From the NCBI GenBank assembly GCA_030706785.1, contig JAUZNW010000006.1, forward strand, positions 1 to 48,135: a stretch of 48,135 nt of DNA, given 5' to 3'. This DNA comes from Bacteroidota bacterium. Lineage in GTDB: Bacteria > Bacteroidota > Bacteroidia > Bacteroidales > VadinHA17. The position numbers were made by a program, and so were the translations under genes. Positions 40,924 through 43,160 of this stretch are shown here, in pieces; within the stretch, counting starts at the first letter, position 1, and each line of letters begins with the position of its first letter. The notes under the pieces were generated by a model, which worked only from the letters and a program-made list of their open reading frames with translations, had not been told where the DNA came from and ran no database searches.

Positions 40924-41543
40924 TTGTTGAATTACAGAATAAAGACGGCATGAAGATAGGAATAGTTACATTGATTATAAGAAAATAACCAAAAGTACCC
41001 CCTTCCTGTTCGCCAGGGGCTTAACAGGACTCCCCCTTACAGGGGGAGAACATTTAGGAAATATCCAGAAGGTCCCCTTTCTCGGTGATGCCCCGCCCTT
41101 GCGGGATGGGGAGAATTATGGCGGTTATGAAATTATCCGGTAAATAAACAAGCAGAAGCTGCCTCAAGAGTCTTTTCTGATCAACAACCCTTAAATCCCC
41201 CAGGCCTTGCTCCGACGAAGCGGCTTCGCGAAGGCGAAGGGGGACTTAATTATGAGCAGATAACTGCGATGCCCCCCTTGGGGGGTTGGGGGTAAACAAT
41301 GACTTTTAAGACGGCTTCTGTATTGTTTTTATTTGCGTTTAATCCGCCTTCGCGTAAAGCTTGTGCCTCCGCTGAAGCTTCGGCGACACGCGGATGGCGG
41401 ACGCGAAGGTAAGGTATAATTCCTCGGTGCTTGCACCGTTCTTAGAGTCCAGAGCTTGCTCTGGAGTCCATACCATTTGATTTACGTAGTTCATTACGTA
41501 AATCTTCTTACGTATTTACGCAATTAAGTAATGAACAAAATAA
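40924..41543. repeat. Gene-free repeat cluster of short inverted repeats
   Basis: About 620 bases without a convincing gene. Hairpins in order: CTCCCCC/GGGGGAG (41030-41048), CCCGC/GCGGG (41092-41105), the two-hairpin repeat (41187-41295), CCTTCGCGT/ACGCGAAGG (41347-41355 with 41401-41409, enclosing GAAGCTTC at 41374-41381), CGGTGC/GCACCG (41425-41438, loop TT), CCAGAGC/GCTCTGG (41449-41464, loop TT) and GATTTACGTA/TACGTAAATC (41479-41504). The promoter of the ECF sigma gene must lie at the left edge. I see no tRNA, CRISPR or transposase. Confidence 0.85.
41187..41295. repeat. Two-hairpin intergenic repeat, copy 2, with insertion
   Basis: AACCCTTAAATCCCCC and GGGGGACTTAATTA are the two arms of the first hairpin, but the loop, one base in copy 1, holds about 36 bases here and itself folds (GAAGC/GCTTC). 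CCCCCC-TT-GGGGGG (41272-41285) and TTGGGGGTAAA follow, as in copy 1 at 37418. Confidence 0.75.
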
Positions 41544-43160
41544 TTATTTAAACTGATAAACCCTCACCCAGTCCACCTCCATGGTAGTCATGCCGTTGAT
41601 CGGTTTTTCAAGGCCGCCTGAAAGCAGCACATACATCGGCTCCTGGGGCACATTCGACGTCTGACGGAATGCCTCCTCCCCGTTTATTTTCCAGACAAGC
41701 CTGTCCTGTGTCCACTCGAGAGTGTAGATATAAAAATCATTAGCGAATTTTGAACCAAAGGCCTTTTTAGAACCTTTTTCAGGGGTTGGGAAATGATCAG
41801 CCCAGACCTTTCCTGATGATGTGCGGCAAATATCGATATGAGGTGTTATCCTGTCAGCCAGCATCCAGAAATTATTCCTTGCCTGGGCATTCCCCAGCCT
41901 TATCTTGGCAGAGAAGATCCCGTATTTCTGCCTGAAGCTTTTTCCGGAATTTATAAGCCCTGAAGTATAGCTGAATTCCCTGTTCTTGAATCCCGAATCG
42001 GGCGACCATACCTTTCCGTTAAACTTCTGCGGCTTTGTAATTATCTTTAAAAGGCTATTGCGGACCTCAAAATTCTCCTTATCGGTATAAGCCTGGAGAT
42101 CCGATTCAACCGAATACCTGTCTTTAAGCAGTTTATCTCCCCAGTAATAGTTTGAAAGCCATTTCCTTGTATCAAGCGATTCCCCGTTAAAATCATCGGT
42201 GAATGTCAGCTCTTTGTTCTTCAGGACATCGAACTTACTGCTGTCCTTTATTTTGAAATACCAGATTATATCTTCATTCTTTTTAAGTCTTTCATATTCC
42301 CTGAGGTTCCTGTATTCCTCAGTTTTTTCGAATTTCTTTTTATCCAGCAAATAATTCTTTCTCTCGGTGAATTTCGGTGTTGCCACATAATCCCTTAATT
42401 CATTGTAACGTCCAAGGCGGGCTGATCCGTCGGTATTCAGGAAGTTTGCATATTCCTTTGATGCCCTGAACTTGTAATATTCGCTGATCTCAACGCTTTT
42501 CTTCAGCCGGTTATATTCAAGAAGTTTCTTGTATTCTTCAGTATCCTTGAAAGTTATGGGCTTCATGTTTTTCTTGGCCAGGAATTCTGGTGTTTTTATA
42601 TATTTTCCCAGTTCCTCAAACCTGAGTACGGCTTTTGATTTATTATCTGCTTTCCCCTTTGCAGCTGCCTTCAGGAAACCTTTGATCTCAGGATCAGATT
42701 TAAGTGACTTGTATTCTGCAAATTTCCTGTACTCGTCTGAATCCTTGAATGTGATTGGTTTCATCTTCTGCCTTTGCCTGAAGGCATTTGATTTTATGAA
42801 ACTCTCTAGTTCTTCAAAATCCCTGATCTTCTGTGATCCATCCATTTCCCTGAATCGTTTCAGCATGCCCCCTGATGAGGTCTTAAAGTATATTACAATA
42901 TCCTTTGCCTTCTGAAGGGAATTGAATTCTTTTTCTCTTGCGTATTCTTCCGAATTCTTGTAGCGCAGGGATTCGATCTCCTTTTTTTTCTGAATGAAGG
43001 CAGAAGAGTTGACAAGTTCATGCAGCTTGTTATAATTTGCCAGTGTGTCAGATTTAATAAAGGCATTCAGTTTGTCAAACTCGGCAACAAGTTCTTTCTC
43101 TGCCTGTTCGATTTTAGATGTAGAGGGAATCATTCCAAGGAGAAACCGGAGACTTGACAT
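41544..43160 (-). CDS. Charged repeat protein fused to a GH16-like domain without catalytic Glu
   Basis: A 538-residue protein. Residues 42-318 hold about four imperfect units of 66-72 residues, rich in Lys, Glu and aromatic residues; units 2 and 3 share MKPITFKD followed by [ST][DE]EY (133-144 and 199-210), and units 1 and 4 have related SEEY/TEEY segments at about 70 and 280. Residues 317-538 are a GH16/concanavalin-like fold: FTDDFNGESLDTRKW, then GIFSAKIRLGNAQARNNFWM, then YIYTLEWTQDRLVWKINGE, ending MEVDWVRVYQF. The catalytic ExDxxE reads HIDICR (H441, D443, R446), so it cannot be a normal glycosidase. No signal peptide is seen. It could be a carbohydrate-binding or structural protein. 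It starts at ATG 43160 and is a single gene. Confidence 0.85.
   Translation of the reverse strand: MSSLRFLLGMIPSTSKIEQAEKELVAEFDKLNAFIKSDTLANYNKLHELVNSSAFIQKKKEIESLRYKNSEEYAREKEFNSLQKAKDIVIYFKTSSGGMLKRFREMDGSQKIRDFEELESFIKSNAFRQRQKMKPITFKDSDEYRKFAEYKSLKSDPEIKGFLKAAAKGKADNKSKAVLRFEELGKYIKTPEFLAKKNMKPITFKDTEEYKKLLEYNRLKKSVEISEYYKFRASKEYANFLNTDGSARLGRYNELRDYVATPKFTERKNYLLDKKKFEKTEEYRNLREYERLKKNEDIIWYFKIKDSSKFDVLKNKELTFTDDFNGESLDTRKWLSNYYWGDKLLKDRYSVESDLQAYTDKENFEVRNSLLKIITKPQKFNGKVWSPDSGFKNREFSYTSGLINSGKSFRQKYGIFSAKIRLGNAQARNNFWMLADRITPHIDICRTSSGKVWADHFPTPEKGSKKAFGSKFANDFYIYTLEWTQDRLVWKINGEEAFRQTSNVPQEPMYVLLSGGLEKPINGMTTMEVDWVRVYQFK

Follow-up and report, generated by a model that had tools for sequence, protein, structure and literature searches.

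The window, i.e. the whole stretch of DNA that was analysed (48,135 nucleotides), carries at positions 41544-43160 of the minus strand a gene for a protein of 538 residues; the coordinates, strand and frame given for it in the initial annotation were correct. An in-frame stop lies 8 codons upstream of the start Met. The protein consists of an N-terminus of about 30 residues, four helical repeats of about 72 residues each and a GH16-fold domain, with the following features:

41544..43160, minus strand: whole gene, 538 aa plus stop
43071..43160, minus strand: N-terminus (residues 1-30), with a hydrophobic/basic stretch ahead of the conserved P12...E18; possibly a docking segment
42852..43043, minus strand: helical repeat 1 (residues 40-103), by shuffle test and repeat HMM
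42642..42827, minus strand: helical repeat 2 (residues 112-173), by shuffle test and repeat HMM
42441..42626, minus strand: helical repeat 3 (residues 179-240), by shuffle test and repeat HMM
42225..42416, minus strand: helical repeat 4 (residues 249-312), by shuffle test and repeat HMM
41550..42215, minus strand: GH16-fold domain (residues 316-537), by Pfam, AlphaFold2 and Foldseek
41988..42017, minus strand: loop G382-F391 (GKVWSPDSGF), with W385 and G390 invariant across the family
41823..41840, minus strand: HIDICR (residues 441-446), the degenerate strand of the active site, which reads ExDxxE in active GH16s

The AlphaFold2 model of the full protein, based on an alignment of 27 rows (mean pLDDT 86.7, pTM 0.56), placed helices within residues 14-314 and a beta-sandwich from about residue 316 to 537, in agreement with the repeat arm and GH16-like domain annotated initially. 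The relative placement of arm and head is uncertain because of the pTM of 0.56. Just 3' of the gene, the intergenic positions 41340-41540 form a dispersed repeat that occurs at 20 places in its own genome including this one (71-100% identity over the longer matches), possibly a small mobile or REP-like element.

About four charged repeats had been annotated ahead of the GH16-like domain, and this number was borne out by two methods. All six pairs of hand-cut units exceeded 500 shuffles (z 7.3 to 18.1), and all four repeats were placed with E-values of 3.5e-20 or better by a repeat HMM of 64 positions, a partly circular result as the HMM was trained on the window units and their homologues. The motif MKPITFKD[ST][DE]EY had been assigned to two of the repeats; the full motif is indeed present twice (residues 133 and 199), but its [ST][DE]EY part occurs in all four (residues 70, 141, 207 and 280). 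Using the same HMM, one to nine repeats were detected in 140 of 143 family arms. Arm length followed 30 + 72n residues with n = 1 to 9 (r 0.986 for 112 arms with a called start). Modelled alone, the arm reached a mean pLDDT of 91.4 and a pTM of 0.61.

A known domain or solved structure for the repeat was sought and none emerged: Pfam matched no domain in residues 1-315 of the window protein and, besides GH16 and SKN1/KRE6, gave only scattered matches (1 to 3 members each) in 27 homologues, and none of 37 PDB matches of the arm reached E<=0.001. An arm-only profile matched in at least 71 of 295 genomes and, in the own genome, this gene only. Among the matches listed, all genomes were also carriers of the full family, and an arm without the GH16 domain, sought with this profile in the 295 genomes, appeared in no non-carrier genome. 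In genome G517, the family gene runs to the end of its contig; a frame of 231 aa on a second contig may be the remainder of that gene.

The C-terminal domain belongs to the GH16 beta-jelly-roll fold by Pfam (PF00722, residues 377-532, 29.3 bits, E 7e-7, cut-off 22) and by Foldseek, with laminarinases as best PDB matches (E 4e-17, TM 0.69 by target); a SKN1/KRE6 match in Pfam was sub-threshold. Where active GH16s carry the catalytic Glu pair of ExDxxE (or ExDxE), the window protein has H441 and R446 within HIDICR, as the initial annotation had read, and its claim that both catalytic glutamates are lost could be extended to the family. The family set comprised 143 distinct sequences from 174 loci (one gene, L047, contributed two pieces), 141 of them spanning the motif. 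Homologues with EIDxxE at 441-446 were sought among these 141 rows, and in none of them was Glu found at both positions, so the claim stands; the alignment of this strand is uncertain in the most divergent rows. Position 441 was occupied by H in 90 rows, Q in 24 and E in 18, position 446 by R in 57, K in 57 and E in 6; a lone Glu was retained in 18 rows at the first position only and in 6 at the second only. D443 was retained in 104 of 143 rows.

As a control, 53 PF00722 matches were obtained in 21 related genomes and 30 loci were read. Two belonged to the present family; the motif E-x-[DN]-x-x-E was present in 25 of the 28 others. When ordinary GH16s were aligned by mafft with 73 family members, all 23 of them had E, D and E at the motif positions; this comparison left out three motif-less GH16s as well as L206 and L187. 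Three exported-looking GH16s of related genomes (L179, L192, L198) lacked ExDxxE by pattern search.

Among 85 representatives, conservation was 51% at position 441 and 49% at position 446, and W334, W385, G390, W490 and N493 were identical in 85/85. The most conserved residues include the aromatics W334, W340, W385, W432 and W490. By this measure the catalytic positions drift while other residues of the domain stay fixed. Replacement catalytic residues at the old site were looked for, and none was conserved in the family. No single new residue has taken over the classical catalytic positions, and glycan binding may therefore not involve the old subsite at all.

P440, K419, W490 and W385 were considered as family-specific residues and rejected: plasmid or viral homologues also have W490, a Pro ahead of the motif and, in part, K419 and W385, which are therefore inherited, not new. 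In ordinary GH16s, the alignment mostly shows a gap in place of the loop with W385, G390 and F391; in five plasmid/viral homologues this loop is incomplete. Family residue N493 is replaced by D in 20 of 23 active GH16s and in 5/5 plasmid/viral homologues, and is also present in 3 of the 23 ordinary GH16s. On these alignments, the distinctive features of the family are limited to N493 and the complete W385-G390-F391 loop.

The absence of a signal peptide had been noted for the window protein and held throughout the family. A 12-residue window with a mean Kyte-Doolittle hydropathy of at least 2.0 within the first 40 residues was taken as signal-like; a start could be called in 113 of 143 members, and none of the 113 had such an N-terminus. 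The same test was positive for 124 of 277 neighbouring ORFs; scored with a slightly wider window, ordinary GH16s of related genomes looked exported in 25 of 28 cases. In 87 of the 113 members, an in-frame stop precedes the chosen Met by at most 10 codons. A type 9 secretion tail was surveyed as well: no Por_Secre_tail was among the Pfam matches of 27 members, and the window chain stops at the last GH16 strand, which therefore leaves no room for such a tail. With neither a signal peptide nor a C-terminal sorting domain, the protein does not have the make-up of type 9 secretion cargo. A cytoplasmic location is inferred from these sequence features.

The N-terminus keeps a common style across the family. 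P12 and E18 were invariant in 27 arms. No acidic residue occurred among the first 14 in 92% of the family, compared to 21% of 118 low-hydropathy controls, and the first 20 residues carried a mean charge of +1.32 in the family and +0.46 in the controls. The hydrophobic moment hardly differed (0.474 versus 0.451), and the N-terminus had low confidence in both structure models. The case for membrane docking is weak because the moment is barely above that of the controls and the model confidence is low; an amphipathic membrane helix at this place would be a guess only.

The genome collection contained 26 family loci. Matches were obtained in 41 of 60 genomes searched (the own genome, 34/35 of the same genus and 6/24 others of the order), several of them partial or in pieces. 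Of 393 genomes sampled from the order, 102 (the own genome among them) matched a 27-sequence profile at E<=1e-20, corresponding to 58 of 206 genera and spanning 34 sampled families. In a phylum-wide sample, the own genome was the sole match (1/395). The distribution is patchy, as the 27-sequence profile found no match in two further genera of the own family. One match, L028, is titled Chlorobiota bacterium and has the same protein as L070/G703, which is placed in the own order; the Chlorobiota title is probably wrong. Full-length relatives with 66-77% identity were present in independent assemblies. The median dN/dS was about 0.095 in the arm and in the domain, with dS near saturation and usable in 12 and 43 of 153 pairs, respectively. 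These data argue for a conserved family and not a decayed gene.

The best NCBIfam match of the window protein was EglC (47.3 bits, E 1.4e-12), far below the equivalog cut-off of 700. A tblastn search in plasmids returned nine records, which aligned only from residue 306 onward. Plasmid homologues from Acaryochloris, Ensifer, Mesorhizobium and Shinella (motifs PEIDIME, PEIDLME, PELDAVE and PEIDLME) were included in trees. The Mesorhizobium homologue is a full EglC (817.6 bits) and adjoins type I secretion genes.

In a first tree, the short fragment L206 fell within the family. A second tree was calculated without L206, L187, L179, L192 and L198 and gave L191/L194 as sister of the family; some of the active GH16s in it had been shifted out of register by hmmalign, and later alignments were made by mafft. 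After addition of five sequences, the plasmid homologues were closer to the family than L191/L194. In a maximum-likelihood tree of 101 sequences, with small taxon sampling outside Bacteroidales, the four plasmid homologues and the dead family grouped at UFBoot 100; support for the dead family alone was only 65 in this tree and 0.86 in an earlier FastTree. Ordinary GH16s of related genomes fell outside the family clade. As judged from these trees and profiles, the GH16 domain shares ancestry with the EglC/ExoK exopolysaccharide glycanases. Nascent succinoglycan is the substrate of rhizobial ExoK and ExsH according to a title cited in PMC4916376, which makes bacterial exopolysaccharide a plausible target of the ancestor.

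Divergent from the window gene lie genes for an outer-membrane lipoprotein-sorting-like protein, for two MacB/LolC-like permeases and for an ATPase that goes with them; an ECF-like sigma factor gene comes after the window gene (all named by reading). Parts of this gene order recur at many of the 26 collection loci and in none of the other families read. Genes were read at 45 loci, 44 of them having an upstream neighbour (L026 and L089 are the same place). Recurrent neighbours, each in a minority, were ATP synthase subunits, a heptosyltransferase, a LepA-like GTPase, a two-component pair, a formyltransferase-like gene and SiaC; the heptosyltransferase, the two-component pair and SiaC were profile-confirmed at single loci, the remaining ones named by reading. 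Neither a gene partner conserved across families nor a secretion gene recurring beside the family gene across families was found at the 45 loci.

A gene for a SiaC-family regulatory phosphoprotein stood directly upstream, at a distance of 19-34 bases, in 3 of 44 loci (L094:7058-7441, L108:6733-7110 and L124). It follows a two-component pair there and was Pfam-confirmed in L094 and L108. SiaC genes were present in 163 of 393 genomes of the order, i.e. in 76/102 carriers versus 87/291 others; by taxonomic family, the counts were 23/34 carrier versus 31/82 other families (Fisher p 0.004, the total of 116 families being inferred). This co-occurrence may be explained by a shared lifestyle. SiaC as an obligate partner was rejected, as 26 of 102 carriers are without it.

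A defence origin was rejected with PADLOC (0 families at E<=1), and a phage origin with PHROGs (two weak matches to entries whose function is not known) and with phage records (0 matches). The single relative on a viral contig is an ordinary, intact-looking GH16 with GEIDITE, encoded directly after a large virion-like protein (L209:2890-3729), and possibly represents a polysaccharide-degrading tail component of a phage.

The reading preferred here, with a probability of roughly 40%, is that of an internal, possibly membrane-docked tether or scaffold whose head, a former glycanase, has a glycan or a protein as its ligand. A domain from the EglC/ExoK-like lineage of GH16 would have lost its catalytic glutamates and, lacking an export signal, become a binding head at the tip of an extendable arm with one to nine helical repeats of about 72 residues. 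The short N-terminus, hydrophobic/basic and nearly free of acidic residues, would dock the opposite end; its most likely anchor would be the inner membrane, on the cytoplasmic side, or a partner protein. The ligand of the head could be a protein or a glycan such as a lipid-linked intermediate of surface polysaccharides, and the reach of the tether would be set by the repeat number. A lectin-like, glycan-binding character of the head is suggested by fold and ancestry. Sequence evidence covers the fold, the dead site, the repeats, the arm-length rule, the missing signal, the conservation and the kinship with EglC-like enzymes, and the main argument draws on the motif, signal and arm tests; location, docking, ligand and tethering are proposals built on these. 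A narrower form is rather doubtful: an intracellular glycan receptor derived from an exopolysaccharide glycanase, with an N-terminal inner-membrane dock, a dead head that holds nascent surface-polysaccharide intermediates and repeats that serve as a ruler. It is ancestry alone that suggests a tie to polysaccharide synthesis.

That the protein is purely a scaffold, with the GH16 fold as a protein-protein module that binds no sugar and has a structural or regulatory role in the cytoplasm, is a lesser but real possibility. No link to polysaccharide genes is conserved across families, the catalytic strand varies freely, and a cytoplasmic placement would keep the head away from most polymers. The SiaC-type signalling gene upstream at three loci, and commoner in carriers, would also fit a regulatory role, but a quarter of the carriers (26/102) do without it, and the five conserved aromatics fit a sugar-binding surface without proving one.

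Non-classical export, with an atypical targeting signal in the N-terminus and a site of action on or beyond the cell surface, appears improbable. The N-terminal style is conserved, hydrophobic and basic, other GH16s of these genomes look exported and at least one EglC relative adjoins type I secretion genes; however, a Sec-like signal was seen in 0/113 members, a type 9 tail in none of 27, and no secretion gene recurs beside the family gene across families. It is harder still to believe that the protein remains an enzyme, hydrolysing or transglycosylating through other residues. Retaining glycosidases without an acid/base residue do exist, D443 is widely retained and some rows keep a lone Glu, but no conserved pair of candidate residues is left at the old site. 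The source genome is a fragmented draft of 299 contigs, and a few homologues are broken or cut at contig ends; a decaying gene or an assembly artefact is nevertheless very unlikely, to the point of being negligible, given the full-length relatives in independent assemblies, the carriers in 34 sampled families and the low dN/dS, even with dS near saturation.

Dead GH16 domains as such are already known from PMC6827312 and PMC9459437. The former, a paper on GH16 subfamilies, puts the share of members with lost catalytic residues at about 9% for GH16_4 (from Metazoa and Fungi, without resolution into monophyletic groups), at 0.7% for GH16_3 and at 1% for all other GH16. The initial annotation had called the architecture of the window protein unfamiliar; it was likewise met neither in the libraries nor in the open-licence literature searched, which contained no description of a bacterial dead-GH16 clade on a variable helical arm without an export signal. 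A bacterial clade that spans 34 sampled families of one order, keeps the Glu pair in none of the sequences seen, lacks an export signal and has an extendable arm would represent a new type of pseudoglycosidase. The GH16 Pfam model matched 27/27 members tested, and they are therefore at risk of being listed as degradative enzymes. As a helical repeat for which neither Pfam nor the solved structures gave a match at the thresholds applied, the arm is amenable to direct structural work.

In comparison to known systems, the window domain has the same fold as laminarinase-type GH16s (Foldseek); the GH16s of related genomes differ from the family by ExDxxE (25/28) and an exported appearance (25/28). 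The EglC/ExoK enzymes (NF052454, NF052392) have in common with the family a Trp at W334 and W490 and the Pro before the motif, but retain ExDxxE, have no arm and carry D where the family has N493. Animal beta-GRP/GNBP proteins are exported, whereas the present family is bacterial, has a helical repeat arm and lacks an export signal. The N-terminal glucan-binding domain of beta-GRP/GNBP was absent from the window protein, which has a helical arm and no Pfam match in residues 1-315. As described in PMC9459437 and PMC6827312, insect beta-GRP/GNBP share with the family a GH16-like domain minus catalytic residues; they serve animal immune recognition and combine a different N-terminal domain with a C-terminal glucanase-like domain (PMC9459437). 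An internal, repeat-armed bacterial pseudoglycosidase had no example in the literature searched, as far as its accessible text goes. A parallel in principle is given by pseudoglycosidases such as the chitinase-like YKL-39, which, according to PMC7828330, have a glycosidase fold without catalysis and retain a binding role, but belong to other fold families.
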